Assembly: GCF_014647375.1 (NCBI RefSeq)
Contig: NZ_BMPB01000004.1
Location: 248,001 to 312,000 of the forward strand
Length of the DNA stretch: 64,000 nt
Reading direction: 5' to 3'
From: Parabacteroides faecis
GTDB taxonomy: Bacteria; Bacteroidota; Bacteroidia; Bacteroidales; Tannerellaceae
The position numbers and the translations under genes were made by a program. Under the pieces are notes generated by a model. It was given only the letters and a program-made list of their open reading frames with translations. It was not told the DNA's origin and did no database searches. This document shows positions 2,955-27,494 of the stretch, one piece after another. How positions within the stretch are numbered: position 1 is the first letter of the stretch; every line of letters begins with the position of its first letter.

Positions 2955-3006
2955 CCAATTAACACAATTAAAAACAACTGTATTAATCTATTACAATTAC
3001 AAAGAT

Positions 3007-6000: not shown

Positions 6001-6456
6001 TTGACATTAGGTGCTGAATGGAAAGGCTTGGCAGTAGCTGCAACCTTTAATGGGAATCTGAAATATTACAGATGGATGAAAGACCTGGCGGGTGGTACGG
6101 AATGGAACAGAATGTGGGTTAATTGGTATGGAGATTCCTGGACTCCGGATAATACGAATGCCAGTTTGCCCAAGAGATTACATGCTTATGATGGATCTGC
6201 TACTTATCATGACGATTCATCGTTCTGGCTAAAGAGAGGCGATTTTTTACGGTTGAAGAATTTGAATTTGTCTTATACTATTCCACAAAAAATCTATCGG
6301 AGTATAGGGTTGGATAAAGTGTCGGTTTATTTTGTAGGAACGAATTTGTTTGTTCTAAGTGGTTTCAATAAAAACTATTATGATCCGGAAATGAAAGAAG
6401 GATTTACTTTCCCGATAATGAAGTCTTATAATTTCGGAGTTAATGTATCATTCTAA
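3007..6456 (+). CDS. SusC/RagA-type TonB-dependent outer-membrane transporter with STN domain
   Basis: An 1149-residue outer-membrane importer for glycan oligosaccharides, driven by TonB. After an extended signal region (residues 1-45) there is an STN signalling domain (about 47-118). A carboxypeptidase-like regulatory domain follows (about 138-213, with GVVTDGAGEPVIGANVSVKG), then the TonB-box-like EEVVVVGY segment, the plug (VLYVIDG...VLKDAASTAVYGSRAAGGVI) and a beta-barrel ending in aromatic NFGVNVSF. The STN domain identifies it as the transducing type that works with the FecR/ECF pair just upstream. The SusD partner begins 22 bases after the stop. Substrate cannot be read from the sequence; the neighbouring GH89, GH38, GH97, GH3 and GH120 enzymes suggest a heterogeneous glycan. 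Confidence 0.97.
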   Translation: MNKKFLSWVFYDKTQRCKHFFRIMKITTLFLFVLIFCLHAENTNSQNVRVTVKQNNVKLGNVLSLIENQTDYLFIYDKYVNVNRKVSVNLNKKPLEEVLGHLFEGTDVKYTVDGSYIILSLKGESKDFSELIQQERKIGGVVTDGAGEPVIGANVSVKGLSIGTITDIDGNFTLEIPDNAVILVSYIGYVSQEIRPGSGNQLKIILREDTQALEEVVVVGYTSQKKELLTGSVATMKMNKELANTPTTGFGNILAGKLSGVSVGTPDGLPGQQPSISVRSKSSWNDQPVLYVIDGKISTQSDFNGLSANEIENVTVLKDAASTAVYGSRAAGGVILVTTKRGGYGQKVQINYSFSTGFDKRGKNVELTDGPQTARLYQRINPTSDPAGWAWTDEDIEFIKTINGGWGYDLLKSVWRDPNTTSHNIDVTGGTDKVKFFVGGSFTKQKGFLPNLDYKKYNMRMNISAKLSENLDIFAALYLNDNNSSSTTGASVGDIYGLYKWLLNWQPDYPVWTKGGLPIDIGWTANIAAQVRGDGGYVKTNYLKPVINANMTYKVPFIKGLSATAAFSKSYTQERSKTFLTRYKMYVTKKTGKHNFSIDDADIVGTTMSSQISKDYMQQDVKWSGDWQLNLQLNYNRTFKEDHNVRAALVFEKYETDGAGVSAGIESFPNYLTDQWWAASDDRSNSYVNRSTDFSDYMSGRQSWVGQLFYDYQGRYLASFSYRYDGSMNFSPDNRWGFFPSGSLGWIISKEPFFKVKGIDMLKLRGSVGLTGNDAVGGWQWLQSYVSGNSAYFGTSSSVNQGITYGVLPNESLTWEKSLNYNVGVDVNFLKNFNFSAEYYYVNTYDILGARSLAVPPTFSMELPSENYGEVHSKGVELTLGYENTFGDFNVFGSLVASYGNSNYVKYDDDKVTYNSEKRVGRSMTAVYGYVADRVIRTETELKQFKEEHPDYRFNGIEPQLGQIVYKDMDGPGGTPDGIVDKYDISILKKSNNPVVLGLTLGAEWKGLAVAATFNGNLKYYRWMKDLAGGTEWNRMWVNWYGDSWTPDNTNASLPKRLHAYDGSATYHDDSSFWLKRGDFLRLKNLNLSYTIPQKIYRSIGLDKVSVYFVGTNLFVLSGFNKNYYDPEMKEGFTFPIMKSYNFGVNVSF

Positions 6457-6478
6457 ACTGTGTAATAAAAGAATTAAT

Positions 6479-8287: not shown

Positions 8288-8327
8288 TCGATAGTTTTTT
8301 CTTTAAAGGAATCCCTTTGCTGAAAAA

Positions 8328-8394
8328 ACAATAATCTTCCACTAAAGAAGCAACTATTTGCTATTTTTTATAGCAATAGTTGCTTCTATATTTG
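8328..8394 (+). promoter_or_regulatory. Shared 67-bp promoter/operator element, copy A (GH97 operon)
   Basis: A 67-bp stretch ending in a -7 box TATATTTG (8387-8394) that aligns without gaps to copies at 13698-13764 and 21838-21904; I count 45 of 67 positions identical in all three. The most constant part is CAATAAT, then TCCAC, then TTTGCTATTT. In this copy alone a nearly perfect long hairpin (8347-8386, GAAGCAACTA paired with TAGTTGCTTC, continuing inward) is also present, which could double as the terminator of the SusD transcript. The likely reader is the AraC-type regulator at 12774, whose own gene adjoins copy B. Confidence 0.85.
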
Positions 8395-8410
8395 TACCTG
8401 CTATAACAGG

Positions 8411-12773: not shown

Positions 12774-13664
12774 TTATAGTTTGAAATTCTGCTTCCTGAA
12801 CTCCAGCGGGGAAAATCCCATCACATTGGAGAACGTCCGGGAAAAATATTGAGACTCTTTAAAGCCCAGCTTGTGAGCGATCTGATTCACTTTCATATCT
12901 GTCTGGATCAGTAGCTTGCAGGCTTTGTCTATTTTCAGGCGGATAAAATAGTCCATAGGGGGATGCCCGATCTCTTTGACGAACTTACGGTAGAAATAAG
13001 ACTCCGAATAACCGCAAAACTTTGCGAAATCTGCCAGTTTCAGGTTGGATTCGATATTGTCGTTCATGAAATGTACTACCCGGTTGATAATGTTTTCCGA
13101 ATATTCCTTTGGGCGGAACTGCCTGCGGTAAATATGGATAAAAAGAAATGATCCCAGGAAATGAGCAAAACACAGGTTCGCATAATGCATGTGATCCATA
13201 TCCGTACTCTCGTTCAGGGTATTGAACATCTCTTCGAACAAGTCGATCCGTTCCTCTATCCGTGATTGTGCAGAGGGGGGAACCGATGTCGGTTTATCGA
13301 AACGGGAAGAGAAAAGCGGAGCTTTATCCCCTCTGAAATGTAACCAGTAAATAGTCCAGGGATCCTCGTCATCCGCCCCGTAAGCATGCGGAATGTTACG
13401 GGGTAATATGATGAATTGGTTTGCTTCCAGCATTTTCCGTTTCCCATACAGCTCGATCCATCCCCGCCCGTCTTTGCAATAGATGAACAGATATTCATCG
13501 CATCCTTCCGGACGATTTATATAATGGTGGGAGGCACGCGCAAAAAATCCCATCGAATAGAGATACAGGTCGCCTGTGAGTGGACTGTCTTCCATCAGAT
13601 TGATCATAGGAATCGGCAGATAAATGAAACGTTCGCCGGAAAAACCAAGTTCTACTTTTGCCAT
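12774..13664 (-). CDS. AraC-family transcriptional regulator of the glycan locus
   Basis: The start is placed at the ATG at 13664 (296 residues) because the protein then aligns from its first residues with the second AraC protein at 60244 (MAKVELGFSGERF against MIKIKEGFKGERF). It has an N-terminal AraC-binding cupin-like domain (about 1-150, with PWTIYWLHF) and a C-terminal double helix-turn-helix (about 195-296, with LKLADFAKFCGYSESYFYRK and the second helix up to FSPLEFRKQN). Such proteins usually sense a sugar. It lies inside the glycan locus, divergent from GH3, with the shared 67-bp element copy B between them, which makes it the natural candidate to bind all three copies. That link is inferred from position. 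Confidence 0.93.
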   Translation of the reverse strand: MAKVELGFSGERFIYLPIPMINLMEDSPLTGDLYLYSMGFFARASHHYINRPEGCDEYLFIYCKDGRGWIELYGKRKMLEANQFIILPRNIPHAYGADDEDPWTIYWLHFRGDKAPLFSSRFDKPTSVPPSAQSRIEERIDLFEEMFNTLNESTDMDHMHYANLCFAHFLGSFLFIHIYRRQFRPKEYSENIINRVVHFMNDNIESNLKLADFAKFCGYSESYFYRKFVKEIGHPPMDYFIRLKIDKACKLLIQTDMKVNQIAHKLGFKESQYFSRTFSNVMGFSPLEFRKQNFKL

Positions 13665-13697
13665 AATACGTATAATCGGGTTGATACTGTAAAGTAA

Positions 13698-13764
13698 ACA
13701 ATAATAATCCACGAAATAAGCAATTATTTGCTATTTATTATTGGGATAGTTCTTTCTATTTTTG
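13698..13764 (+). promoter_or_regulatory. Shared 67-bp promoter/operator element, copy B (GH3 gene)
   Basis: Gapless 67-bp match to copies A and C, ending in the -7 box TATTTTTG (13757-13764) and oriented toward the GH3 gene. It lies in the divergent spacer with the AraC regulator gene. An AGCAA-N4-TTGCT dyad is visible inside the conserved core. Confidence 0.85.
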
Positions 13765-13811
13765 TTTTAACTTACACTTTCTGTTTGCTGTATGAAAAAA
13801 ACAATGATATC

Positions 13812-16154
13812 ATGAAAAGAAAAACAATGCTATTCTGCCTATATCTGAGTTGTAGTTTAGGCATTCATTCTTTGGCGGCTACGTCAGATCTCCCTTACAA
13901 AGATCCGAAATTATCCGTAGAACAACGCGTCACAGATTTACTGGGACGTATGACGTTGGAAGAAAAAGTGGCCCAGTTGAATATGAAAAGTCTTAGCGGA
14001 CTGAAAACCAACGAAAAAGGGAAGGTGACGGAGAGTTCATTGGAAGCCCTTTTTGGGGGAGAGAGCATCGGTTGCCTGGAAAGTCCCTTTATCGAACACG
14101 GAAAGATTGCTGCTTATTCGGAAGCGGCCGATCAGTATCTGCGGACAAAGACCCGGTTGGGCATCCCTGCTATTCAGATTGCCGAGTGCCTGCACGGACA
14201 CATGGCGCTAGGGGCCACAATTTTCCCTCAATCGATCGGTTTAGGGGCGACCTGGAATCCGGAGCTGATCAGGGAGATGGCAGGCGTGATAGCCCAGGAA
14301 GCTTTACTTGCCGGTGTGGACCAGGCTCTTTCTCCTTTGTTCGACATAGCTAGGGATCCGCGGTACGGACGTGTCGAAGAATGCTATGGAGAGGACCCTT
14401 ATCTGGTAAAGGAGATGGGTGTGGCTTTCGTGAAAGGGTTACAAGGCGAGCCGGAACAATCTTCCAAAGGAATAGCTCCCGGAAAGCTGGCGGCCATGGG
14501 AAAGCATTTTGTCGCCTATTCCAAGCCCGAAGCCGGAATTAACATTGCTCCGGCATTGGTAGGAGAAAGAGAATTGAGGGAAGATCATCTTTATCCTTTT
14601 GAGGCGGCGGTTAAGGAGGCCAATATCTATAGTATTATGCCCGGTTACCATGAGATAGACGGTGTGCCTATCCATGCCAGTAAATGGTTGTTGAAGGATA
14701 TACTCCGCGACGAATGGGGGTTCGACGGATATATATTCTCCGACTATGGGGCGATAGGCATGATGAACTATCTTCACCATACGGCCGACGGACCAAAAGA
14801 AACGGGCTTTCAGGCTATAACAGCCGGAGTGGATGTGGAAGCCCCCGGTGCCTATGGATATAAACATCTGGTAGAATTGGTAAAGGAGGGCAGGTTGCCT
14901 GAATCGGTTGTCGACGAGCGTGTAAGGTGTGTTCTTACGATAAAGTTTAAGATGGGGCTGTTCGATCGTCCCTTTAAAGTGCATAAAGGCGACCAACAGA
15001 AAGTCCATACGAAGGAAAATGTGGATTTGGCAAGGCGTATAGCCGAGGAGTCTATTGTTTTGTTGCAAAACAATGACAATGTTCTGCCATTGGATAAAAA
15101 CAAACTGAAATCATTGGCAGTGATCGGTCCGAATGCTGATAAAGTTCAGTTTGGCGATTACAGTCCCACGAAAAATAACGACTATGGCGTTACCGTCCTC
15201 CAGGGTTTAAGGGCATATCTGGGAGATGAGGTAAAGGTCAATTACGCTCTCGGCTGTGGCATCACTTCGTTGTTTACCGACAGTATCGCTTCGGCGGTGG
15301 AAGCTGCAAAGAATAGTGACGCGGTTATATTGGTATTGGGTGGTACAAGCCAGACACTTTCAGGTATTGGCTGGGGTGATGAAAACTCCAAAGAACTGGC
15401 TACGTGTGGTGAAGGTTATGATCGTAATGAACTGGATTTTCCCGGTGTTCAGCCACAATTGCTCGAAGCTGTGGCCGCTACCGGTAAACCGATAGTGCTT
15501 GTGATGATAAACGGCCGTCCGCTGACGATTGGCGAAGAAGCGAAAAAAGTGAATGCGGTTGTCGAGGCATGGTATCCGGGAGAGAAAGGCGGGGAGGCTG
15601 TGGCACGTGTGTTGTTTGGAGAGGTCAATCCATCCGGCCGACTTAGCATGACTTTTCCTCCAACGACAGGGCATATACCGTTATATGCTGCCCAGAAACC
15701 GTCTGCCAGAGGTTTTTACAAGAGTCCGGGTACGCCTGAAAACCCTGGCCGTGATTATGTTTTCGCCCATCCGAAACCCTTGTTCTGCTTTGGGCATGGT
15801 TTGAGCTATACCACATTCGAATATAAAAATATGCATATAAAAGAAGCGGGTGATGTAGTGAGGGTTTCCTGTGAACTGGCCAATACGGGTAAGCGTGACG
15901 GGGCAGAAGTCGCACAATTGTATGTCCGTGACGTAGTGAGCAGCACCAGTACGCCACTGAAGGCTCTTAAAGCTTTTCAAAAAGTATATCTTAAGGCAGG
16001 CGAGTCAAAGACAATCGAGCTTGTCGTAAAAAAGGAAGACCTGAAGGTATGGAATCCGGAGATGAAGAAAGTACTGGAGCCGGGTGAGTTTAAGGTGATG
16101 GTCGGTTCTTCGGTTGAGGATATCAGGCTGGATGGCAGCTTCGACGTGAGGTAA
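13812..16154 (+). CDS. Glycoside hydrolase family 3 (beta-glucosidase/beta-xylosidase type)
   Basis: The start is placed at 13812 (780 residues) because an in-frame upstream extension would overlap the promoter, whereas MKRKTMLFCLYLSCSLGIHSLAA is a good signal peptide. The N-terminal GH3 barrel spans about 35-370 and contains AMGKHFVAYSKPEAG and the nucleophile motif FSDYGAIGMM with its conserved Asp. The C-terminal GH3 sandwich (about 400-640) and a fibronectin-III-like tail (about 690-770) follow. The enzyme is expected in the periplasm, trimming terminal beta-linked glucose or xylose. The next glycosidase gene follows after about 100 bases. Exact sugar specificity is not readable. Confidence 0.94.
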   Translation: MKRKTMLFCLYLSCSLGIHSLAATSDLPYKDPKLSVEQRVTDLLGRMTLEEKVAQLNMKSLSGLKTNEKGKVTESSLEALFGGESIGCLESPFIEHGKIAAYSEAADQYLRTKTRLGIPAIQIAECLHGHMALGATIFPQSIGLGATWNPELIREMAGVIAQEALLAGVDQALSPLFDIARDPRYGRVEECYGEDPYLVKEMGVAFVKGLQGEPEQSSKGIAPGKLAAMGKHFVAYSKPEAGINIAPALVGERELREDHLYPFEAAVKEANIYSIMPGYHEIDGVPIHASKWLLKDILRDEWGFDGYIFSDYGAIGMMNYLHHTADGPKETGFQAITAGVDVEAPGAYGYKHLVELVKEGRLPESVVDERVRCVLTIKFKMGLFDRPFKVHKGDQQKVHTKENVDLARRIAEESIVLLQNNDNVLPLDKNKLKSLAVIGPNADKVQFGDYSPTKNNDYGVTVLQGLRAYLGDEVKVNYALGCGITSLFTDSIASAVEAAKNSDAVILVLGGTSQTLSGIGWGDENSKELATCGEGYDRNELDFPGVQPQLLEAVAATGKPIVLVMINGRPLTIGEEAKKVNAVVEAWYPGEKGGEAVARVLFGEVNPSGRLSMTFPPTTGHIPLYAAQKPSARGFYKSPGTPENPGRDYVFAHPKPLFCFGHGLSYTTFEYKNMHIKEAGDVVRVSCELANTGKRDGAEVAQLYVRDVVSSTSTPLKALKAFQKVYLKAGESKTIELVVKKEDLKVWNPEMKKVLEPGEFKVMVGSSVEDIRLDGSFDVR

Positions 16155-16256: not shown

Positions 16257-19151
16257 ATGAAAAAGCGAATAGGATTCTGTTTATTGATATCCGCGTTGTC
16301 TGCCACCGTTCAGGCCGACATAAAACCAGGTGCGATCGATTATATCGTGCGTCCGTTATACGGTTACAGGACTGACGGAACGCCCGGGCGTATCGTGACG
16401 GTCCGGTTAAAAGGGGAAGAACTGAAAGGCGATCTTTCGGTCGAGGTGATAGCCAAAGGGAAAACGGAAAAGAGCCATTTTGCATTGAATGCGAGAGACT
16501 CGGCAGAGGTGGAAGTCCTGTTGCCTTCTACGGTTCCTACCGGAAAGAAGTCGGAAGTTACATTTGTCCTCCACGGGGCGGATAAGACGTATAAACAGAA
16601 GGTAAGCGTTACGCCTATGCGCCATTGGAACGTTTACCTGTACAACCATGCTCATGTAGATATCGGTTATACCAATACGCATAAAAATGTCGAACAGCTT
16701 CATAAGAACAATATCATTGAAGGAATAAAACTGGCGGAAGAGACGAAAGACCATCCCGACGGTGCCCGTTTTGTCTGGAATCCGGAAGTAGGCTGGCCTA
16801 TGGAACGGTTGTGGCAATCCAATCCGGAGATGCGGGGTGAACTGGTCGAAGCCATGAAGAAAGGACAGATTTGCCTGGATGCCAGCTATCTGAACCTGAA
16901 TACCAGCACCTGTGCCGATGAGGAGTTGTTCCATGTCTTCAAATTTACCCGCGAGATGCAACGGCTGAGCGGGCAACCTTCGGATGTTTTCCAGCAATTC
17001 GATATACCGGGCATGTCCTGGGGATTGATCCCTGTCATGGCACAGGAGGGTGTCAAGTATATTATCTCATGGCCCAATACCGACCGGGCGGGGAATGCTC
17101 ATAAGAATATGGACGGGAAACCGTTCTGGTGGGTAGGTCCCGACGGCAAATCGAAGGTGCTGTTCCTGCAGCCGGGCGGCTATGCAAATAGCGGCAGTAT
17201 GGGAAAAGGGGGAGAGACCGGGCGTCCCTGGTTCGGACAACGTGACCCGGCAAAAGTGCCGAAGGTTATTCGTATGGGATATGCCAATGTCGATTTTACC
17301 GAGAAACTGACGGCATTGGAAAAGGAGAATTATCCGTATGACTACACCGTTCTTTCCTGGTCTTTGTGGGATAACAACCCGTTGGATGCCGATGTCCCTT
17401 TTGCCGTGAAAGAGTGGAATGAAAAATATGCTTATCCGAAAATCATTATCAGCGGCGGTCATGAGATCATGTCGATGATAGAAGAGAAATACGGTGACCA
17501 GTTGCCGGTCGTTTCCGGCGACTATACCGAATACTGGACGGACGGCCTGGGTACGGCTGCCGGTCTGACCGCCAGGAACCGGAATGCCAAGGAGAAACTG
17601 GTACAGGCGGAAACGATCTGGTCCATGCTGGCGGACGGTGGTAAAGCTCCGCGTGAAGATTTCGACGAAGCCTGGCGTTATATCCTTTTAGGCTCGGAAC
17701 ATACCTGGTGCTTTGAGAACCCTACCGAACCCTATTTCCAGGATGCCATTTGGAAAGTGAAACAGTCTTACTTCCATGAAGCCGAAGACCGTTCGATCGA
17801 TATGCTGGATGAATCGCTGGCCCCCGCTACGGACAAGTCGAATGGGGCGCTGGGACCTAAGGAAGGCCCGGCAAACGGAGGTATTGCCGTCTTCAATACG
17901 CATTCCTGGCCGCAGAGCGGTGTGATCCGGCTGACGGCAAAGGAAAGCCTGAAAGGTGATAAAGTGGTCGACCAGAATGGTAAGGAGGTGCTTTCCCAAC
18001 GTCTTTCTTCCGGTGAGTTGTTGTTCTATGTCCCGGAAGTACCGGCACTGGGTTCCCGTCATTTCCGGGTAGTGGAAGGCAAATGTTCTTTGCCGGGTCA
18101 CTGTAAAATAGAAGGAACGACATTGGAGAACGATTGTCTGACCGTTCATCTGGATAAGGCGACAGGTAATATCACATCTTTATTGAAGAAAGGTTCTGTA
18201 TATAACTATATCGGTGAGGGTGCCAATACCTTCTCCTGGTTGCCGGCGAACGTGGATGCTCCGCAGGCAGATACCGTATTGTCTGTTTCCGTGGTCGAAG
18301 AAGGTCCGCTGGCTGTAGAACTGTGTGTGACTTCAAAAGCGGCCGGTTGCCGGAGCGTCTCCCGTTCCGTTCGTTTGCAGGCAGGTCAGCCGTGGGTGGA
18401 AATATCCAACGTCGTAGATAAACTGCCTTTGGTGGAGAAAGACGGCATTCATTTCGGCTTTGCTTTCAATCTGCCGGACTCAAAGACCCGCGTAGATATC
18501 CCCTGGGGAGTGATGGAGGTGGAGAAAGACCAATGGCCGCAGGGGAACCGAAACTGGCTGGCGATGCAGCGGTGGCTGGACGTTTCGAATGCGACGCATG
18601 GCGTTACCTGGTGTTCGCTGGATGCTCCTCTGTTTGAGTACGGCGATCGGCATGCCAATATCGCAATGGGCTGGGGAGGCCAGGGTAACTGGATCACCAA
18701 ACTCGAACCCAGTTCTACGGTCTATTCATGGGCAATGAATAATCACTGGCATACCAACTTCCCGTTGACACAGGACGGTCCTGTCCGGTTCCGTTACCGT
18801 TTGTATCCGCATGAAGCATATGATGTGGTGGAAACCAACCGTTTCGGTATGGAACAGTCGCAACCTCTGGTATATGTAACGGCGGATAAGGACCCGCAGG
18901 CACAGCCTCTGATCGCTATCGACAACCGGAAGGTCTACTCGACGATCATCAAATCCCTGGAAACCGATCATACACTGATCGTCCGTCTCCGTTCCCTATC
19001 CGATAAAGAGGAAAGCGTCCGGTTATCTTTCCCTAAAAAGACCCCGGCCCGTATCTCTGTCTGCGATCGCGAAGAGATTGCCGGAGAAAGAACCGACGGT
19101 AATCTGGTGATGGCTCCGTACGGACAAATCACATTGAAATTGGAATACTAA
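16257..19151 (+). CDS. Secreted glycoside hydrolase family 38-type alpha-mannosidase-like protein
   Basis: The start at ATG 16257 gives 964 residues with signal peptide MKKRIGFCLLISALSATVQA; the longer open frame begins at a TTG. The N-terminal catalytic region has the metal-binding signature NHAHVDIGYTNTH near residue 135 and an Asp in QFDIPGMSWG that fits the family nucleophile. A SEHTWCFENP segment further on supplies the usual later His. The C-terminal half is the beta-rich GH38 tail. Family members remove alpha-mannose using zinc. The first gene of the window may be a distant paralogue. It follows the GH3 gene on the same strand. Assignment to the GH38 superfamily is good; activity on mannose specifically is less certain. 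Confidence 0.85.
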   Translation: MKKRIGFCLLISALSATVQADIKPGAIDYIVRPLYGYRTDGTPGRIVTVRLKGEELKGDLSVEVIAKGKTEKSHFALNARDSAEVEVLLPSTVPTGKKSEVTFVLHGADKTYKQKVSVTPMRHWNVYLYNHAHVDIGYTNTHKNVEQLHKNNIIEGIKLAEETKDHPDGARFVWNPEVGWPMERLWQSNPEMRGELVEAMKKGQICLDASYLNLNTSTCADEELFHVFKFTREMQRLSGQPSDVFQQFDIPGMSWGLIPVMAQEGVKYIISWPNTDRAGNAHKNMDGKPFWWVGPDGKSKVLFLQPGGYANSGSMGKGGETGRPWFGQRDPAKVPKVIRMGYANVDFTEKLTALEKENYPYDYTVLSWSLWDNNPLDADVPFAVKEWNEKYAYPKIIISGGHEIMSMIEEKYGDQLPVVSGDYTEYWTDGLGTAAGLTARNRNAKEKLVQAETIWSMLADGGKAPREDFDEAWRYILLGSEHTWCFENPTEPYFQDAIWKVKQSYFHEAEDRSIDMLDESLAPATDKSNGALGPKEGPANGGIAVFNTHSWPQSGVIRLTAKESLKGDKVVDQNGKEVLSQRLSSGELLFYVPEVPALGSRHFRVVEGKCSLPGHCKIEGTTLENDCLTVHLDKATGNITSLLKKGSVYNYIGEGANTFSWLPANVDAPQADTVLSVSVVEEGPLAVELCVTSKAAGCRSVSRSVRLQAGQPWVEISNVVDKLPLVEKDGIHFGFAFNLPDSKTRVDIPWGVMEVEKDQWPQGNRNWLAMQRWLDVSNATHGVTWCSLDAPLFEYGDRHANIAMGWGGQGNWITKLEPSSTVYSWAMNNHWHTNFPLTQDGPVRFRYRLYPHEAYDVVETNRFGMEQSQPLVYVTADKDPQAQPLIAIDNRKVYSTIIKSLETDHTLIVRLRSLSDKEESVRLSFPKKTPARISVCDREEIAGERTDGNLVMAPYGQITLKLEY

Positions 19152-19293: not shown

Positions 19294-21822
19294 ATGAAAA
19301 AGATTTTATTAATTGCCATCTGTAGTCTCTTGTTTCCCGGAAGTCAACATCTGTGTGCTCAGAAGCAAAGGGCCGAAGCTGCTTATAAAGTAATTGAACG
19401 GGTTTCCGGTCAATCCGGCTTACCGGTAAAGTTCTCTTTGAAGCCGAATAAAGAAAAGGGGGAAGGTAGTACTTATTTTCAATATAAGGCGGCTGAAGGC
19501 CGGTTGATGATTGAAGGGAATAGTCCGGTCGCATTATGCCGGGGCTTCTATGATTTTATCAAAAGTAATCGTTCAGGTATATATAGTTGGTCAGGAAGTA
19601 ATGTTCGATTCCCGGAAAAACTGGAAGATATTCCTTTGAAACGGGTTGTCTCTCCTTTTGAGAACCATTTTATGTGTAATGTAGTGGTTTATGGATATTC
19701 CATGCCTTATTGGGATTGGGACCGTTGGGAGAAAGAGATAGATTGGATGGCATTACATGGCATCAATATGCCATTGGCATTGGTGGGATATGAGGCGATC
19801 TTAGCCCGCGTCTGGAAAAAGATGGGGCTGACGGATGATGAGATAAATCATTATTTCGTCGGTCCGGCTCATTTACCCTGGATGCGGATGGGGAATATCA
19901 GTGGCATTGACGGTCCGTTGAATGAGGATTGGCATCGTCGGCAAATCGATTTGCAACATAAGATATTGAAGCGGATGAAAGAGCTGGGGATGAAACCCAT
20001 CTGTCCCGGTTTCCCCGGCTTTATACCGGAGGTTTTTAAACGCATTTACCCTGATCTGGAAGTTATCCAGACACATTGGGGAGGTGCTTTCTGTAACTGG
20101 ATGATCTCTCCGCAGGAAGAACTGTTTACCAGAATAGGAACAGAATTTATCCATGAATGGGAAAAAGAGTTTGGAGAGAACGAGCATTATCTGGTAGATA
20201 GTTTTAACGAGATGGATATTCCTTTTCCTGCAAAAGGTTCTAAAGAACGTTATGACCTGCTGGCTTCTTATGGCGATAAGGTTTATCAATCTATTCGGAA
20301 AGGAAATCCGAAGGCTACATGGGTAATGCAAGGTTGGATGTTTGGTTATCAGAGAGACATCTGGGATTATGAGACGCTGGGAGCTTTGCTCTCTGAAGTA
20401 CCCGATGATAAAATGCTTTTATTGGATTTAGCGGTAGATTATAATAAGCATTTCTGGAAATCGGAAGTGAACTGGGAGTTTTATAAAGGTTTCTACAATA
20501 AGCCCTGGGTATATAGTGTCATTCCGAATATGGGAGGTAAAACCGGTATGACCGGTGTTTTGGATTTCTATGCGAACGGTCATTTGGAGGCGTTGTCTTC
20601 TCCTGATAAAGGACGTTTGATCGCTCATGGAATGGCTCCTGAAGGAATAGAAAATAATGAAGTCATCTATGAGTTATTGTCTGATGCAGGTTGGTCGGAT
20701 AAAAAGATAGATATTCACGAATGGCTGAAGGAGTATTCTTATAATCGTTATGGAAGCTATCCGACAGCAGTTCGTAAATGTTGGGATTTACTGTTGGAAT
20801 CGGTATATGGGACATTTACCGATCATCCTCGTTATAACTGGCAGTTTCGTCCGGGAACAGTCCGGAACGGTTCGATCTGTTTGAACGAATCTTTTTTCAA
20901 AGCGATAGAATCATTTGTTGACGTAAGTGGTCAGTTGAAAGATAATCCTCTTTATTTGGCAGACCTGTCGGAGTTCACAGCCCTTTATCTGGGAGGAAAA
21001 GCCGAGTTGCTGGTGAAAGCAATAGACTGGCAGTATGAGATAGGAGATACGGTACGTGCAGTAAAGTTTGAAAAGGATTTTGAATATTTACTGACCGGAA
21101 TAGATGCTCTGTTATCTGTTCATCCGACATTACGTTTGGAACGTTGGATCGATTTTGCTCATAAGCAGGCTGTAACTCCTGAACAGCATAAGCAATATGA
21201 AAGAAATGCGAAGCGTATCGTCACGATCTGGGGACCTCCTGTGGATGATTATTCAGCCCGCGTCTGGTCCGGTTTGATACGTGACTATTATTTGCCGCGT
21301 TGGAAGCATTATTTTGAAAGCAGAAAAACAGGAGTTCGTTTTAACTTTGCCGAATGGGAAAAGAACTGGGTTGAATCGGAGGGTTGTTCTCCGCTGGCTC
21401 TTCCTGCAGATATAGTAAATACAGCTCGTTCGCTGGTTGATTATGCGGCTTTTATAACTCCGGATTTAATACCGGACGGGAAAAAAGGTCAGTTAGGATC
21501 GTGGACGGTCGGTTCTGAAAAGACAGAAGTCTTGTCTTTTCAATTGCCTGCAGATAAGTTGGAGAAATTATCTTCCGTCCAAATAGAAAGAAAGAGAGGG
21601 GGAAGTCCGGTCGTTTGTTCCCGTTTCAAATTGGTGGCGGATGGAAAGGTCCTGATAGAAGGTGCTTCAGCTGAAATCTTACAAGGGGATAAATTGAGGA
21701 TCGTTTATCCGGTGACTTTATCCGATGATATTCGTGGAAATAACGGAGTAGAACTACAGGTGCAGATAGAAAATACCGGATCGGAAACTGCTTCCGGACA
21801 AGTCTCTGTTATTGCAGAATAA
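19294..21822 (+). CDS. Alpha-N-acetylglucosaminidase, glycoside hydrolase family 89
   Basis: An 842-residue protein with signal peptide (MKKILLIAICSLLFPGSQHLCAQ) and the three-part NAGLU layout: a short N-terminal alpha/beta domain (about 25-115), a TIM barrel (about 125-450) and a C-terminal helical domain with a beta tail. Signatures include DWMALHGINMPLALVGYEAI and the two likely catalytic glutamates in DSFNEMDIP and EGIENNEVIYE. GH89 enzymes remove terminal alpha-GlcNAc, as found on gastric and intestinal mucin O-glycans and heparan sulfate. This is the strongest hint that a host-type glycan is among the locus targets. The gene has no copy of the 67-bp promoter element and follows the 23-bp array. 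Confidence 0.95.
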   Translation: MKKILLIAICSLLFPGSQHLCAQKQRAEAAYKVIERVSGQSGLPVKFSLKPNKEKGEGSTYFQYKAAEGRLMIEGNSPVALCRGFYDFIKSNRSGIYSWSGSNVRFPEKLEDIPLKRVVSPFENHFMCNVVVYGYSMPYWDWDRWEKEIDWMALHGINMPLALVGYEAILARVWKKMGLTDDEINHYFVGPAHLPWMRMGNISGIDGPLNEDWHRRQIDLQHKILKRMKELGMKPICPGFPGFIPEVFKRIYPDLEVIQTHWGGAFCNWMISPQEELFTRIGTEFIHEWEKEFGENEHYLVDSFNEMDIPFPAKGSKERYDLLASYGDKVYQSIRKGNPKATWVMQGWMFGYQRDIWDYETLGALLSEVPDDKMLLLDLAVDYNKHFWKSEVNWEFYKGFYNKPWVYSVIPNMGGKTGMTGVLDFYANGHLEALSSPDKGRLIAHGMAPEGIENNEVIYELLSDAGWSDKKIDIHEWLKEYSYNRYGSYPTAVRKCWDLLLESVYGTFTDHPRYNWQFRPGTVRNGSICLNESFFKAIESFVDVSGQLKDNPLYLADLSEFTALYLGGKAELLVKAIDWQYEIGDTVRAVKFEKDFEYLLTGIDALLSVHPTLRLERWIDFAHKQAVTPEQHKQYERNAKRIVTIWGPPVDDYSARVWSGLIRDYYLPRWKHYFESRKTGVRFNFAEWEKNWVESEGCSPLALPADIVNTARSLVDYAAFITPDLIPDGKKGQLGSWTVGSEKTEVLSFQLPADKLEKLSSVQIERKRGGSPVVCSRFKLVADGKVLIEGASAEILQGDKLRIVYPVTLSDDIRGNNGVELQVQIENTGSETASGQVSVIAE

Positions 21823-21837
21823 GGATATTCCGAATAA

Positions 21838-21904
21838 GCAATAATAATCCACAAAATAGGCAGTTTTTTGCTATTTTATATCGGATAAGGACCCTCTATA
21901 TTTG
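21838..21904 (+). promoter_or_regulatory. Shared 67-bp promoter/operator element, copy C (GH120-methyltransferase operon)
   Basis: Third gapless copy of the 67-bp element, ending in the -7 box TATATTTG (21897-21904). The leader to the GH120 start is only about 40 bases, which leaves no room for a riboswitch. It should drive the GH120 gene and, by tight gene packing, the four corrinoid-system genes. Confidence 0.85.
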
Positions 21905-21946
21905 CATTGTTCTTCTAGTCGAAGTTACACTAACAATCGAAATACC

Positions 21947-23836
21947 ATGAAGAGAAAGCAGTTATTTTTTATACTATTCCTGATATGCTGCGCAGTAGTG
22001 CAGGCGAAAGAATATCATGTATCCGTAAAAGGGAACGATGCGAATGAGGGAACCGAAAAAGCACCTTTCCGGACTATTGGGAAAGCGGCGGAATATGCTT
22101 TCCCCGGTGATGTGATCACTGTGCATGCCGGAACGTACCGTGAGTGGATAAACCCTCCGAGAGGCGGTGAAAGCGACGGGAAGCGGATTGTCTATCGTGC
22201 GGCTCCGGGAGAAAAGGTAGAGATAAAAGGCTCGGAAAGGATCACCGGCTGGACGAAGGAGAAAGACGGAGTCTGGAAGGTCACGATCCCGAATACATTC
22301 TTCGGTGATTATAATCCGTATACCGACCTGATCTATGGCGATTGGTTTGACGGCATGGGACGCGAACATCATACCGGCGAAGTGTTCCTGAATAACAAAT
22401 CCCTCTATGAGAAGGAGTCGCTGGACAAAGTGCTTCGCCCGGTCCCGCATGAAAACGGCAAAGATAAGGAAGGGGCTGCCTACACCTGGTATTGTGAGAA
22501 TGACGGCGTGAATACGATCATCTGGGCAAATTTCCATAAATATGACCCGAATAAGGAACTGGTGGAAATAAGTACCCGCAACACCTGCTTTTATCCGTCG
22601 AAACCGGGTATCGACTACCTGACTATCCAGGGCTTTTATATCAGTCAGGCTGCTACCCAATGGGGAGCTCCGACGGCAGAGCAGATCGGTATGATAGCTA
22701 CCCATTGGAACAAAGGGTGGATCATCGAGAACAATGTAATCAGTAACTCCAAATGTTCAGGCATAACGTTGGGAAAAGAACGTCAGACCGGTCATAATGT
22801 CTGGCTGAACGATACGAGCATCGACGGTTCCCTGCATTATATCGAAGTGACTTTCAATACGATCCGGAATGGCTGGAATAAGGAGAATATCGGTTCGCAT
22901 ATTGTTCGTAACAATGAGATATCCCATTGCGAACAGACCGGTATCTGTGGAAGTATGGGGGCCGCTTTCAGCCTGATCGAAAACAATCATATCCACGATA
23001 TCTGGGTGAAGCGTCAGTTTACCGGTGCAGAGATCGGAGGTATTAAATTTCATGCTGCGGTAGACACCCGTATTGTCCATAATCGTATTCATAATGCAGG
23101 CCGTGCCCTCTGGCTGGATTGGATGACGCAGGGTACCCGGGTTTCGGGAAACTTATTCTACGATAATGATATGGAAGATCTTTTCCTGGAAGTAAACCAC
23201 GGCCCGTTCCTGGTTGACAATAACATTTTCGCCTCACGCCGGAGTATCCTGGAACAATCCCAGGGAGGTGCTTATGTGCATAACCTGATCGCCGGAGATA
23301 TCTACCGGTATGTAGAACACGGACGGTACACTCCTTATTTCCTGCCTCATTCGACAGAAGTCGCGGGCCTGTCTATTATTCCCGGTGGAGACGACCGCTA
23401 TATCAACAACCTTTTTGCTACCGTTCTTCCGGTGACGGAAGGAGAGAATAAGCGGAAATACGGTTTGGCGGACTATAATAAAACGGTTTATCCGATGATG
23501 GTGGACGGGAATGTCTATTACAACGGAGCCTTGCCGTTTGAAGGTGAAAAGAACAAAGTAGTCCTCCCTGACTTCAATCCGAATGTGAAGATCGAAGAAA
23601 CGGCTGACGGCGTTTATCTGTCTTTATCCGTAAAAGGTTTGAGTGATTTGCAGACCAGCCGTGTCAATACGGAGAGACTGGGAAAAGCCAAACTCCCCGG
23701 ACAAGTCTACGAGCAACCCGACGGCAGCCCGATTGAAATTGCTGCCGACTATCTGGGGAATGCACGTGGAGACCAGCCCAAGCCGGGACCTTTGGAATCC
23801 GTCAAAGACGGCGAGATCAGAATAAAAGTATGGTAA
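21947..23836 (+). CDS. Glycoside hydrolase family 120-type beta-xylosidase (parallel beta-helix)
   Basis: The start at 21947 (629 residues) gives signal peptide MKRKQLFFILFLICCAVVQA; an upstream TTG in frame overlaps the promoter. The protein is a right-handed parallel beta-helix (GTEKAPFRTIGKAAEYAFPG at the first rungs). The order of motifs, YREWINPPRGG, GDWFDGMGREHHTGEVFLN, then ALWLDWMTQGTRVSGNLFYD and FLEVNHGPFLVDNN, follows the GH120 beta-xylosidase family as I remember it, with the Asp of WLDW and the Glu of FLEV as the likely catalytic pair. It should act on beta-xylosides in the periplasm. It is the first gene of an operon whose next four genes make a corrinoid methyl-transfer system, 19 bases after its stop. 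Confidence 0.82.
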   Translation: MKRKQLFFILFLICCAVVQAKEYHVSVKGNDANEGTEKAPFRTIGKAAEYAFPGDVITVHAGTYREWINPPRGGESDGKRIVYRAAPGEKVEIKGSERITGWTKEKDGVWKVTIPNTFFGDYNPYTDLIYGDWFDGMGREHHTGEVFLNNKSLYEKESLDKVLRPVPHENGKDKEGAAYTWYCENDGVNTIIWANFHKYDPNKELVEISTRNTCFYPSKPGIDYLTIQGFYISQAATQWGAPTAEQIGMIATHWNKGWIIENNVISNSKCSGITLGKERQTGHNVWLNDTSIDGSLHYIEVTFNTIRNGWNKENIGSHIVRNNEISHCEQTGICGSMGAAFSLIENNHIHDIWVKRQFTGAEIGGIKFHAAVDTRIVHNRIHNAGRALWLDWMTQGTRVSGNLFYDNDMEDLFLEVNHGPFLVDNNIFASRRSILEQSQGGAYVHNLIAGDIYRYVEHGRYTPYFLPHSTEVAGLSIIPGGDDRYINNLFATVLPVTEGENKRKYGLADYNKTVYPMMVDGNVYYNGALPFEGEKNKVVLPDFNPNVKIEETADGVYLSLSVKGLSDLQTSRVNTERLGKAKLPGQVYEQPDGSPIEIAADYLGNARGDQPKPGPLESVKDGEIRIKVW

Positions 23837-23855
23837 TCTAAAATTAGTATTGAAC

Positions 23856-25109
23856 ATGACATCCAAACAGCGTGTGCAAAGCGCACTAGCCCATCGTATG
23901 CCTGATTGCGTACCGGTCGACTTCGGAGCAACTTCGGTTACAGGCATCCATTGTAAGGTCGTAGAGGCCTTGAGACAACATTATGGATTGGACCCGCATC
24001 CTGTCCGTGTCATCGAACCTTTCCAGATGTTGGGAGAGATCGAAAGCGACTTGCAGGAGATTATCGGCATAGACTGTGTCCCTGTTTTCGGACGCAAGGA
24101 TATGTTCGACATCGATGAAACCCAACTCCACGAGCAAATCACCCCCTGGGGGCAGAAAGTGATGATCGCCTCCGGTATCGACCTGACGACCGACGGCCAG
24201 GGAGATGTTCACATCTATGCGGGAGGAGACCGTTCCTATCCGCCCAGTGCCGTGATGCCTTCCGGCTGCTATTTTATCAATGCAACGGAAAGACAGGAAT
24301 ATGTGAATGACGAAGAGATCGATCCGGCAGATAATCTGGAAGAGTTCGGCCCTCTTTCTGACGAAGATCTTCAATACTATAAAAAGACGGTCGAACAGGC
24401 TGCCGTAACCGGAAAAGCGGTTGTCGCCAGCTTCGGCGGTACGGCACTGGGGGATATCGCTTTCGTTCCGGGCATGGGGCTGAAAGACCCGAAAGGTATC
24501 CGCAATGTCGCTGAATGGTATATGTCTACCGCCATGCGCCGTGACTATGTACAAACGGTCTTTGAAAAACAGACCGATATTGCACTGGCTAACTATCAAC
24601 GTCTTTGGGATGCGGTAGGTGAGAAGGTCGATGTCGTCTTTACCTGCGGAACCGATTTCGGAACCCAGGACTCGCAATTCTGTTCGCTCGATACATTCAG
24701 GGAGTTATGGCTTCCCCACTACAAACGGATGAACGACTGGATTCATCAGCATACCACCTGGAAAGTATTCAAACATACCTGTGGGGCTATCCTCCCGATT
24801 CTTCCCGGTTTGGTGGATGCCGGTTTCGATATAATCAACCCTGTCCAGATCAATGCCAAAGATATGGACCCGAGGGTATTGAAAAAAGAGTTCGGCAGCC
24901 AGGTGACGTTCTGGGGCGGCGGTATCGACACGCAACGTATCCTGCCGAATGCGACACCCGAAGAGGTGCGGAGCCATGTATTGCAGGAATGTGAGATATT
25001 GGGAGCTGACGGCGGTTTCGTTTTCAACGCCGTTCACAACATACAGGCTAATGCGCCGGTTCGGAATGTCGTGGCGATGATAGAGACATTGCGTGAGTTA
25101 CGAGGTTAA
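23856..25109 (+). CDS. UroD-fold methyltransferase, MT1-like (methyl donor to corrinoid protein)
   Basis: A 417-residue protein (ATG at 23856; an earlier TTG is less likely). It has the uroporphyrinogen-decarboxylase fold, but the N-terminus TSKQRVQSALAHRMPDCVPVDF, the FKHTCG motif (about residue 308) and the GGGIDTQRILPNATPEEV motif (about 352) are those of the methyltransferases found with corrinoid proteins, as in vanillate-type O-demethylases, and not of HemE. It is predicted to cleave a methyl group from a small donor and pass it to the corrinoid protein encoded 20 bases downstream. No signal peptide, so cytoplasmic. The donor is unknown; its place behind a xylosidase gene suggests a plant-derived methoxylated compound or an O-methyl sugar, which is inference. 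Confidence 0.85.
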   Translation: MTSKQRVQSALAHRMPDCVPVDFGATSVTGIHCKVVEALRQHYGLDPHPVRVIEPFQMLGEIESDLQEIIGIDCVPVFGRKDMFDIDETQLHEQITPWGQKVMIASGIDLTTDGQGDVHIYAGGDRSYPPSAVMPSGCYFINATERQEYVNDEEIDPADNLEEFGPLSDEDLQYYKKTVEQAAVTGKAVVASFGGTALGDIAFVPGMGLKDPKGIRNVAEWYMSTAMRRDYVQTVFEKQTDIALANYQRLWDAVGEKVDVVFTCGTDFGTQDSQFCSLDTFRELWLPHYKRMNDWIHQHTTWKVFKHTCGAILPILPGLVDAGFDIINPVQINAKDMDPRVLKKEFGSQVTFWGGGIDTQRILPNATPEEVRSHVLQECEILGADGGFVFNAVHNIQANAPVRNVVAMIETLRELRG

Positions 25110-25129
25110 TAATTAAAACAGATAAAGTT

Positions 25130-25765
25130 ATGGCAGATTTGGAGAAATTGTATGAGGCTATTTTGACAGGAAAACTGGAGATAGCCAGGGCGGTAACCAA
25201 CGAAGCGATCGCAGAGAATGTCGATCCGCATTTGATCATTAATAACTATATGTCGCGAGCCATGGAAGATATAGGCAAACGTTTCGAGGAAGGAAAAGCC
25301 TTTGTCCCTGAACTATTAATGGCAGCCCGTGCTATGAAAGGTGCGCTCGACCTGCTGAAACCGCAAATGAAAGGTGCAGCCTCCCACAGTCTGGGAAAGG
25401 TGGTGATCGGAACGGTAAAAGGAGATTTGCATGATATCGGAAAGAACCTGGTAGCCTCCATGCTGGAAGGCTGCGGCTTCGAAGTGATCAACCTCGGAAC
25501 CGATATCTCTTCGGAAAGGTTTATAAACGCCCTGAAAGAAAACCGGGCTCAGATCCTGTGCCTGTCTGCCCTGCTGACAACGACGATGAATTATATGCAG
25601 GAGGTGATCGATGCTTTGGAGCAGAATGGAATCCGCAGCCAGGTTAAAGTGATGATCGGCGGTGCGCCGGTTTCCGAATCGTTTGCCCGCCAGATCGGTG
25701 CAGACGGTTATAGCGACAATGCCAATGCCGCGGTATCGCTTGCCAAATCCTTATTATCCGCCTGA
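25130..25765 (+). CDS. Corrinoid (B12-binding) methyl carrier protein
   Basis: A 211-residue protein of the MtaC/MttC/MtvC type. It has an N-terminal four-helix B12-binding cap (about 1-88, ending EGKAFVPELLMAARAMK) and a C-terminal Rossmann-like B12 domain (about 90-211). The signature GDLHDIGKN supplies the lower-ligand His (D-x-H-x-x-G). It carries the methyl group on cobalt between the two methyltransferases of the operon. Length is normal. It lies 20 bases after the MT1-like gene and 4 bases before the reactivation-domain gene, so the components are expected in fixed ratio. Confidence 0.95.
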   Translation: MADLEKLYEAILTGKLEIARAVTNEAIAENVDPHLIINNYMSRAMEDIGKRFEEGKAFVPELLMAARAMKGALDLLKPQMKGAASHSLGKVVIGTVKGDLHDIGKNLVASMLEGCGFEVINLGTDISSERFINALKENRAQILCLSALLTTTMNYMQEVIDALEQNGIRSQVKVMIGGAPVSESFARQIGADGYSDNANAAVSLAKSLLSA

Positions 25766-25769
25766 TCGT

Positions 25770-26447
25770 ATGCAGGAATACGAGTTAGACTTTAGCCGGT
25801 TATCCCTGACGGTAAATGATTTATTTACCGAGATGGGCTACGGCAGTACGGAACCGGAAGAGCCGGTGGAGGCATTGACCGTCTCCATGCTGGAAGAGGT
25901 TTCGTCTTGGATCGTTCCGCGTTGTGCGTTCGGTCTGTTTGACGGGCGGATGGAGGAAGACGCTGTATCTCTGGATGGCGGCGAACGTATTCATGTCGGA
26001 GCGACGATCTCTTCCCTTCTGAAAGGCTCCGGCCGCTTCGCCCTCTTTGCGGCGACTGCGGGGACTGCTTTTCAGGAGTATCAGAATCGTTTGAAAGCGG
26101 AAGAGGACATCCTGAAAAGTTTTATTGCAGATATTATCGGTACTTGTATCGCAGAAAAAGCCGGTGACTGCATGGAACGGTTACTCGAAAAAGAGCTGGT
26201 GGGAGAACGGCACACGAACCGCCTGAGTCCCGGATATTGCGGCTGGCATTTATCCGGCCAGCAGACACTGTTCCGCTTGATGGGCGGGAATCCTTGCGGT
26301 ATCGGTTTGTCGGAGGTATGCCTGATGACACCGATCAAGTCGATCAGCGGTATTATCGGTATCGGGCCTGATGTGGATGAGAAAAAGTACGGTTGCCAGT
26401 ATTGTGAACTGGAGACTTGTTATAAACGAAAAAGAAAGAAGAAATAA
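25770..26447 (+). CDS. MetH-type reactivation-domain protein, stand-alone
   Basis: The start is set at ATG 25770, four bases after the corrinoid gene stop; the longer frame runs back over that gene. The 225 residues resemble the AdoMet-binding activation domain of B12-dependent methionine synthase, here as a free protein. The SPGYCGWHLSGQQTLFRLM segment (about 148-166) matches the family motif R-x-x-PGY, followed by VCLMTPIKSISGIIGIG. The C-terminus ends in a cysteine pair (CQYCELETCYKRKRKKK). In MetH this domain re-methylates oxidised cob(II)alamin using AdoMet and an electron donor. A free copy next to a corrinoid protein is known from methyltransferase clusters and probably restores the carrier here. 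The overlap with the next gene is one base. Confidence 0.85.
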   Translation: MQEYELDFSRLSLTVNDLFTEMGYGSTEPEEPVEALTVSMLEEVSSWIVPRCAFGLFDGRMEEDAVSLDGGERIHVGATISSLLKGSGRFALFAATAGTAFQEYQNRLKAEEDILKSFIADIIGTCIAEKAGDCMERLLEKELVGERHTNRLSPGYCGWHLSGQQTLFRLMGGNPCGIGLSEVCLMTPIKSISGIIGIGPDVDEKKYGCQYCELETCYKRKRKKK

Positions 26448-27454
26448 TGGAAATACAAAAGTGGCTACACGAAACAAGGAACCGGCAGGAACGTAGGGCT
26501 ATTCCTATCATGACGCATCCGGGTATCGAGTTATGCGGTAAAACGGTGAGAGATGCGGTTACCGATGGCGAAGTGCATGCGGAGGCGATCTGCCGGTTGA
26601 ACGAACAATATCCGTCGGCAGCACCGACAGTTATCATGGATTTAACGGTGGAAGCAGAGGCTTTCGGTGCGAAGGTGGTCTTTCCGGAAGATGAGGTCCC
26701 CAGTGTAACGGAACCGCTCGTATCGGATAGGGAGTCTATAGATCGTCTTCCAATCCCGTCTCTTGAGGCCGGACGTGTACCCGAATACCTGAAAGCGAAC
26801 CGGCTGACGGCAGAACGGGTAAAGGATAAGCCGGTCTTTGCCGGTTGTATCGGTCCGTTTTCGCTGGCAGGGCGTTTGTTCGGGTTGTCGGAATTAATGA
26901 TCGCCCTGTATGTGGAGCCGGAGAATATGACCGTCTTATTGGAGAAATGTACCCGTTTCCTGATCGACTATACCCGTGCAATCAGGCAGACAGGTGTTCA
27001 TGGCGTGATCATGGCGGAACCGGCGGCGGGTTTGATCTCAAACGAAGATTGTCTGTTATATTCGACGGATTATGTTCGTCAGATCGTGGATGCGGTGCAG
27101 GATGAGAACTTTATGGTGATCCTGCATAACTGCGGAAACTTCGGACATTGTACGGAGGCGATGATTCAGTCTGGAGCGGCCGGACTGCATTTCGGTAATA
27201 AGATAGATATGGCGGAGGCGTTGGAGAGCTGTCCGGAAGACCGGTTGGTCATGGGGAACCTCGATCCGGTCGGACTTTTCAAACAGTCATCGCCGGAAAA
27301 AGTATATGCAGAGACAATGAATCTGCTAAAGAAAACCAGCCAATGGAAGAATTTCGTTTTATCGACAGGTTGTGATGTGCCTCCGCATGTTCCGTCAGAG
27401 AATATCGAGGCATTTTATCAGGCACTTAATAGTTTTAACAATCGATCAGTGTAA
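26447..27454 (+). CDS. UroD-fold methyltransferase, MT2-like (methyl from corrinoid to acceptor)
   Basis: A 335-residue cytoplasmic protein, MtaA/CmuA-like. Its zinc ligands are visible: His and Cys in ILHNCG (about residue 226) and a later Cys in LSTGCDVPP (about 309), as in methylcobamide:thiol methyltransferases. Coenzyme M is not expected in Bacteroidetes, so the acceptor may be homocysteine, another thiol or tetrahydrofolate; this is open. Its start codon overlaps the stop of the preceding gene (TAATG). It ends the five-gene operon and is followed by a perfect hairpin shared with glnN. It differs from the MT1-like protein at 23856 in lacking the GGID motif. Confidence 0.85.
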   Translation: MEIQKWLHETRNRQERRAIPIMTHPGIELCGKTVRDAVTDGEVHAEAICRLNEQYPSAAPTVIMDLTVEAEAFGAKVVFPEDEVPSVTEPLVSDRESIDRLPIPSLEAGRVPEYLKANRLTAERVKDKPVFAGCIGPFSLAGRLFGLSELMIALYVEPENMTVLLEKCTRFLIDYTRAIRQTGVHGVIMAEPAAGLISNEDCLLYSTDYVRQIVDAVQDENFMVILHNCGNFGHCTEAMIQSGAAGLHFGNKIDMAEALESCPEDRLVMGNLDPVGLFKQSSPEKVYAETMNLLKKTSQWKNFVLSTGCDVPPHVPSENIEAFYQALNSFNNRSV

Positions 27455-27461: not shown

Positions 27462-27494
27462 AATGTCCTGTGTAAGTTCTTTGCACAGGACATT
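27462..27494. terminator. Bidirectional terminator between the corrinoid operon and glnN
   Basis: AATGTCCTGTG (27462-27472) and CACAGGACATT (27484-27494) form a perfect 11-bp stem with an 11-base loop, between convergent genes. A/T runs lie on both sides. Confidence 0.85.

Follow-up and report, generated by a model that had tools for sequence, protein, structure and literature searches.

In acetogens and methanogens, aromatic O-demethylases (MtvABC, Odm/Vdm and MtoABCD) cleave ethers anaerobically with a first methyltransferase of the UroD superfamily (MT1), a small corrinoid protein, a second methyltransferase (MT2) and an activator. Their donors are methoxylated aromatics, their acceptors are of the pterin type and their activators are RACE proteins. 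The glycine betaine demethylase MtgBCDE is a modular corrinoid system, a split methionine synthase that leads from substrate demethylation to methionine (as outlined in PMC12478193), Type 1 mlp gene clusters encode a number of proteins of the UroD fold alongside a corrinoid protein (available part of PMC10418091), and a P450 system of marine Flavobacteriia demethylates 6-O-methyl-D-galactose within a glycan locus (summary of PMC10033563). The aromatic systems in their four parts and in anaerobic ether cleavage, and the others in the features just given, resemble what is seen in or proposed for a run of five genes in the stretch analysed here, positions 248001-312000 of contig 4 in a 6.66 Mb Parabacteroides-type genome (64,000 nucleotides, hereafter the window). 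The run encodes a glycoside hydrolase of family GH120, an MT1, a corrinoid carrier (COR), a stand-alone activation protein (ACT) and an MT2. From observed gene order, families, folds, conserved residues and recurrent neighbours we propose that the run is probably, though with real room for error, an add-on to a glycan locus that takes O-methyl groups off sugars anaerobically and in a B12-dependent way.

The run differs from each described system. It departs from the aromatic O-demethylases in the thiol type of its MT2, in the likeness of its ACT to MetH and in its place within a sugar locus, a comparison of gene content, context and published descriptions. MtgBCDE includes a PF06253 protein, MtgB, and a pterin-binding MtgD according to the outline in PMC12478193, and the run has neither. 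Type 1 mlp clusters pair His-Cys-Cys proteins with RACE in a sulfur or selenium context in the available part of PMC10418091, and the run lacks that pairing. The P450 system, as summarised in PMC10033563, needs oxygen, makes formaldehyde and uses enzymes unrelated to those of the window. The run is also unlike the methanol and methylamine systems MtaABC and MtbA: MT2 (145.7) and MT1 (47.9) fall short of the TIGR01463 cut-off for the MtaA/CmuA subfamily (235.4), MT1 is not MtaB, and MT1, COR and MT2 all stay below curated NCBIfam cut-offs. Among the matches listed from titles and abstracts of the open-licence literature, descriptions of sugar demethylation concern oxygen-dependent P450 enzymes only, and none appears of a corrinoid system for sugar ethers or of one in a Bacteroidales glycan locus. 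The parts are of known kinds, and the donor class, the coupling to a glycan locus, the His-Cys-His site of MT1 and the Cys-rich ACT are undescribed among those matches, within which the claim of novelty made by an earlier reading of the sequence alone holds.

That sequence-only reading placed the five genes in one tightly packed run, and the coordinates agree: all lie head to tail on the forward strand with gaps of 19, 20, 4 and -1 bases. Pfam scores likewise bear out its assignment of a GH120 protein, UroD-fold MT1 and MT2, a corrinoid protein and a MetH-type activation domain. The GH120 protein (21947..23836), of the beta-xylosidase type, contains the GH120 insertion domain (PF21258, 131.5 bits, cut-off 27), which places it in that domain family, and aligns along its whole mature length with Thermoanaerobacterium XylC (3vst, E 6.4e-174). 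The alignment keeps the Asp and Glu of 3vst at positions 382 and 405, presumably the catalytic residues. The nucleophile of the family is Asp and the acid/base is Glu (PMC6887791, available part). By eye the N-terminal stretch resembles a signal peptide, so the enzyme is probably periplasmic. MT1 (23856..25109), a proposed O-methyl-sugar:corrinoid methyltransferase, matches URO-D at 51.8 bits (cut-off 23.9) over only the C-terminal half of the profile, its N-terminal half having no Pfam match, and MT2 (26447..27454), a predicted methylcorrinoid:thiol methyltransferase, matches at 202.2 bits. COR (25130..25765) combines B12-binding (PF02310) with B12-binding_2 (PF02607), carries the DxHxxG motif as DLHDIG from residue 99 and resembles 1y80 (E 2e-51), all as in methyltransferase corrinoid proteins of the MtvC/MttC type. 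ACT (25770..26447) matches Met_synt_B12 (PF02965) at 45.4 bits (cut-off 25) over profile positions 123-253 of 273 only, and contains SPGYCGW (153) and C-x2-C-x4-C (209). Pfam found no ATP-dependent RACE activator, folate methyltransferase or pterin-binding domain in the five genes, so the RACE activator and pterin-binding MT2 of an aromatic O-demethylase set are both missing, and ACT and MT2 take the places of RACE and the folate methyltransferase. The system, earlier called complete, does possess MT1, COR, ACT and MT2 but neither of those two proteins.

The metal-binding residues distinguish the two UroD-fold proteins. MT2 has the His-x-Cys...Cys site of thiol methyltransferases in the UroD superfamily (invariant H227-x-C229 and C309) and MT1 does not; by profile alignment the Zn site is His-Cys-Cys in MT2 and His-Cys-His in MT1, where H307, C309 and H394 are invariant and the third position is His394 in 75 of 75 rows. 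The available part of PMC10418091 assigns His-Cys-Cys to S-methyltransferases and describes O-methyltransferases in which the Cys is replaced, the third ligand giving way to carboxylates or non-coordinating residues. These residues bear on whether MT1 could act on methyl-thiol or methyl-selenol donors, which we consider extremely unlikely: a UroD-fold pair with a corrinoid protein and the His-Cys-Cys site of MT2 would suit such chemistry, but the third ligand of MT1 is His rather than Cys, RACE is missing, and the context is one of sugar, not of sulfur or selenium. Homocysteine is a likelier methyl acceptor than folate because MT2 has a thiol site, ACT is MetH-like, no pterin-binding protein lies in the run and related runs contain a homocysteine methyltransferase; of the two acceptors offered earlier, the first is thus strengthened and the second is less likely. 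A phmmer search of solved structures with MT1 returned nothing at E 0.001, and the MT1 family profile gave one weak UroD match (E 0.0017). Structure search gives MT1 a UroD fold, which does not discriminate the methyl donor, and the best 50 matches listed include no solved member of MtvB, OdmB or MtoB.

ACT likewise had no phmmer match among solved structures at 0.01. All 17 proteins in one cluster of its homologues carry the motifs SPGYCxW and C-x2-C-x4-C, which the host MetH lacks, and ACT could be an Fe-S variant of the MetH activation domain. That MetH, a 1230-aa protein on contig 12, contains five Pfam domains (homocysteine, PF02574; pterin; both B12; activation), and its presence speaks against a split methionine synthase that has nothing to do with the glycan locus, one of the two outcomes that the sequence-only reading had named as refuting itself. 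COR, a thiol-type MT2 and a MetH-like ACT could together yield methionine, but the run has no pterin-binding or PF02574 domain, and two more UroD/corrinoid sets lie in other glycan loci of the genome with other UroD proteins and glycosidases. With a complete MetH on another contig, we reject the split enzyme as highly improbable.

Of these two further sets (the window's being set A), set B on contig 22 has the order COR-MT2-ACT-UroD and lies amid GH106 and GH78-type rhamnosidases; its relative in another locus (L176) also has such rhamnosidases around it. Set C on contig 1 joins RhaM, COR, RhaT and an MT1 homologue (MT1_3) with GH92, sigma/FecR and SusCD genes and a protein scoring just below the cut-off for Alpha_L_fucos; no MT2 or ACT was seen at this locus. 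All five URO-D matches of the host genome at E 0.001 fall in methyl-transfer sets, and a separate hemE was not seen.

Set C points to a class of substrate. We collected 20 loci with MT1_3 identity of about 50% or more, nine from Tannerellaceae and 11 from further families, the latter found among 393 genomes sampled evenly across the order (18 genomes match MT1_3 at E 1e-60, some through set A-type MT1). Within 5 kb of MT1_3, RhaT occurs in 12 loci, RhaM in 10, either in 13 and GH29 in five; seven loci have neither RhaT nor RhaM, and four of these (L178, L179, L229 and L231) lie near contig ends. Pfam identifies RhaT (1.4e-56), RhaM (2.8e-34) and two GH29 proteins in L224, RhaM with GH29 in L232 and RhaT in L226, and the gene run RhaM-COR-MT2-ACT-RhaT-MT1 recurs in L172, L174 and L175. 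Because the RhaT symporter and the mutarotase RhaM share a run with MT1, COR, MT2 and ACT, we infer that a methylated 6-deoxyhexose is the natural donor of set C. The rhaT/rhaM set thereby gives a substrate class that is open to direct testing. Extension to the window would draw on MT1 homology (33-34% identity between MT1_3 and the window MT1), shared residues and the same core genes, and the sugar of the window's own set may be a methylated one of the xylose or glucose type. Plant, algal and microbial glycans all contain O-methyl sugars, for example the 2-O-methyl-fucose and 2-O-methyl-xylose of rhamnogalacturonan II; to our knowledge a methylated xylosyl unit would be new as a GH120 substrate. 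In L224, L227, L228 and L232 an AraC-type gene lies divergent from RhaT and is possibly a sugar sensor.

We then compared relatives of the window MT1. A contig scan found 112, and the best 80 define the named loci L047-L126; these were retrieved by their MT1 match and are a non-random sample, so we claim no rates from them. Genes in these loci come from a codon-score caller, with approximate starts (it missed the window ACT), and those in family and order loci were called by length only. Identity to the window MT1 is 94% for the P. goldsteinii protein (L047) and 89% for the one from P. gordonii (L048). Across 83 loci, with Pfam run on one representative per cluster, partners include a PF00083 symporter (12), GH29 (6), RACo (12) and a homocysteine methyltransferase (8). 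In L067 a homocysteine S-methyltransferase (PF02574) directly precedes ACT, Opitutaceae and Acidobacteria have MT1 relatives in runs with RACo, COR and homocysteine methyltransferase, and in three Clostridia loci assembled from metagenomes (L072, L075 and L120) a LacI-type regulator is fused to a binding protein and an ABC transporter comes with a Peripla_BP_4 protein. GH3 is the partner in L051-L054 and L121.

A neighbour census supports the sugar reading. It covered proteins of 120 to 1300 aa encoded directly beside MT1, going through the loci in order until a residue limit was reached, which gave 119 proteins from 65 of the 80 loci; near-duplicate or unsuited loci were left out (L053, L065, L066, L068, L097, L101, L111, L117 and L120), as were the window and the host sets B and C (L014 and L015), while L119 and L122-L126 fell outside and L121 partly in. 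At E 1e-6, and among the commonest 25 of 119 families, the neighbours include B12-binding (17), B12-binding_2 (17), URO-D (10), MFS_1 (9), Sugar_tr (8), GH120 (6), Alpha_L_fucos (GH29; 4), GFO_IDH_MocA (4), MtaB (3), GH3 (3), the xylose-isomerase-like AP_endonuc_2 (3), Pirin (3) and S-methyl_trans (2). A control of 119 genes drawn randomly from 285 at least five genes away in the same loci gave URO-D (7), GlcNAc_2-epim (4), Response_reg (4), GFO (4), MFS_1 (3) and GH130 (3), and none of B12-binding, Sugar_tr, GH120, GH29, GH3 or MtaB appears among the 25 of 166 distal families listed, the last of which have one member. Sugar_tr, GH120, GH29, B12-binding and MtaB are therefore close-range partners of MT1; sugar genes also occur at a distance because such loci are often devoted to glycans from end to end.

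These neighbours bear on two other donors. An aromatic O-demethylase like MtvB or OdmB, acting on methoxylated phenols that glycosidases free from plant glycosides, would have the same architecture of MT1, corrinoid protein, MT2 and activator as the enzymes outlined in PMC12915777 and PMC8630106, and GH3 and GH120 could cut plant glycosides. We nevertheless find this unlikely, since the neighbours are sugar symporters, a mutarotase, fucosidases and rhamnosidases, the run has neither a folate MT2 nor RACE, and, Pirin perhaps excepted, the commonest 25 of 119 neighbour families include no aromatic-metabolism family. Some Pirin members are quercetinases, and the three adjoining MT1 speak for an aromatic and against a sugar donor. 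A small methyl compound derived from pectin or plant material, such as methanol or a methyl glycoside, is quite unlikely as the donor, with MT1 a second small-donor enzyme beside MtaB. In ten loci (L055, L059, L087, L162, L164, L168-L171 and L197), several of them probably from termite-gut metagenomes, MtaB does adjoin MT1 or a relative, share its run or lie nearby, but methanol is already served by MtaB, a member of another Pfam family, methyl glycosides would yield methanol through GH120 or GH3 and leave MT1 unneeded, and sugar transporters and mutarotase indicate a sugar-sized donor. Where MtaB and MT1 share a locus, two donors may feed one carrier. Of the donors proposed earlier, O-methyl sugars thus fit best, given the symporters, rhamnose mutarotase, fucosidases and rhamnosidases, and methoxylated aromatics find little support among the commonest 25 neighbour families.

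Across the Tannerellaceae MT1 tends to occur together with corrinoid carriers. Of 124 genomes of this family, 33 have an MT1 match (counted at E 0.001 and with distant paralogues, kinship uncorrected throughout) and 32 a stand-alone COR, two of the latter partial; 27 genomes have both, six MT1 only (G057, G085, G093, G098, G110 and G114), five COR only (G003, G024, G052, G106 and G113) and 86 neither (Fisher 1.1e-16). GH120 at 250 bits or more occurs in 23 genomes, 18 with and five without MT1 (Fisher 8.2e-9); restricted to close GH120 and close MT1, nine genomes have both, 10 MT1 only and five GH120 only (Fisher 8.6e-6). At locus level GH120 shares a gene run with MT1 in nine of the 80 named loci, from Bacteroidota and one Planctomycetota metagenome assembly (L125). 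It lies directly upstream of MT1 in L048, L050, L062, L068 and L069, directly downstream in L061, L071 and L125 and after MT2 in L049, and further cases are L157, L158 and L243. On an MT1 tree of 85 rows, 12 of them with GH120 within five genes, adjacency changes nine times, against a shuffled mean of 11.1 (25 of 500 shuffles were as low, by a quick method). Adjacency is thus weakly clustered, GH120 having repeatedly been gained or lost, or been overlooked on short contigs. The tie to GH120 stands in that both belong to one run but is looser than first claimed, GH120 being one of several partner glycosidases.

We infer every reaction of the following scheme, along with the sugar and the acceptor. 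Periplasmic glycosidases (GH120 with GH3, GH38, GH89 and GH97) would release an O-methylated sugar, to be imported by a symporter, although none was found in the window's run. MT1 would bind the methylated sugar, activate its ether oxygen through Zn and transfer the methyl group to Co(I) of COR; MT2 would take it from methyl-Co(III) and hand it to a thiol, homocysteine being the likeliest, which would yield methionine. ACT would re-reduce oxidised Co(II), and the demethylated sugar would enter catabolism. The earlier link between glycan breakdown and methyl removal is supported, and it recurs in other families and phyla. We lean slightly towards a wider version, a widespread modular, oxygen-independent pathway in which a core of COR, thiol MT2 and Cys-rich ACT works with exchangeable UroD-fold MT1 proteins, each in its own methylated-sugar locus with a matching glycosidase, symporter or mutarotase, and delivers the methyl group to methionine. 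If true, such a corrinoid pathway would account for the way in which anaerobes of gut and sediment complete the breakdown of O-methylated glycans, give a function to UroD-fold 'decarboxylases' of glycan loci and connect glycan use by gut Bacteroidales with the supply of vitamin B12.

Several observations weigh against sugar demethylation by the window's run. No member of the family has a known activity. RhaT and RhaM are features of set C; the five-gene run of the window includes neither, nor any other inner-membrane sugar symporter, and several of the 20 set C loci come from one genus. The third-ligand His of MT1 is not among the replacements named in the available part of PMC10418091, and the set B UroD protein has no H-x-C-G pattern, so the three MT1 types do not all share a His-Cys-His site. 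B. fragilis-type relatives place an MT1-COR-ACT-MT2 run within a locus of GH26, GH5, GH3, GH130 and epimerase genes (L051-L054 and L121), so no single sugar fits all set A loci; MtaB in several runs implies that other C1 donors feed the same carrier. GH120 is missing from the fetched stretch of 71 of the 80 named loci, some of them short contigs, and is lost in P. goldsteinii (L047), which keeps MT1. COR matches occur in the fetched stretch of 34 of the 80 loci and in that of the other 46 there is none, which, with the unmatched N-terminal half of MT1, would suit a UroD-fold enzyme catalysing another, non-methyl reaction on sugars while COR and MT2 serve something else. Such an enzyme is very unlikely given the invariant His-x-Cys of MT1, its co-occurrence with COR and the Opitutaceae and Acidobacteria runs. 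In 32 genomes from the 46 loci with no nearby COR, PF02607 lies elsewhere in 30, 27 of them with a frame of 200-330 aa at 55 bits or more, a count that has no background set and comes from genomes whose completeness is not established. PF02607 occurs only in longer frames in G137 and G147; G133 and G135 have none, and G138 has one MetH-size frame and a weak match.

Upstream of the five genes the window is a glycan-utilisation locus, headed by ECF sigma, FecR, SusC-like and SusD-like genes (1064..8287, forward strand). These are followed on the same strand by GH97 (8487..10409) and, as identified by Pfam, GH3 (13809..16154), GH38-type (16263..19151) and GH89 (NAGLU)-type (19294..21822) genes, with an AraC-type regulator on the reverse strand (12774..13712). 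A 748-aa protein (10416-12662) has no Pfam match at E 0.001, and its relatives adjoin GH120 and GH38 genes in other loci. A 70-bp leader repeat precedes GH120 (21836..21905) and ends in TATATTTG, which we take to resemble the Bacteroidota -7 box TAnnTTTG. It is the third window copy; a repeat search placed the others before GH97 (8326..8395) and between the AraC-type and GH3 genes (13696..13765), and the later copies are 83% and 73% identical to the first (8326) over 70 bp. The element, reported earlier as 67 bp and shared with two glycosidase promoters, is real but not special to them: the host genome holds nine matches, eight of them on contig 4 between 191 and 270 kb and the ninth on contig 1, and the leader is a general element of the contig 4 run of glycan loci. 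Three of the matches extend over 69-70 bases and the other six over 41-49. A regulator or promoter family common to the copies is likely, and control by the AraC-type regulator is possible. P. goldsteinii (L047) and P. gordonii (L048) have the leader as well; in L047 (9842-10000) GH120 is gone and the leader and first GH120 codons remain directly 5' of MT1, a hint that the leader may serve the methyl-transfer genes too.

Rfam at gathering score gave no match in the window, L014, L015, L172 or L174, and we therefore claim no riboswitch. A promoter and terminator scan showed no clear excess over shuffles. Downstream of MT2 an 11-bp hairpin with a short T run, terminator-like by eye, lies on the forward strand (27462..27494), and is absent from the output of the terminator scan, which took loops of 3-8 only. 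In a further set, at a P. gordonii-type locus (L149, 1113-18588), COR and three different UroD-fold proteins are combined with GH38 genes, a GH95-like protein and a second GH120, which is itself preceded by a leader copy.

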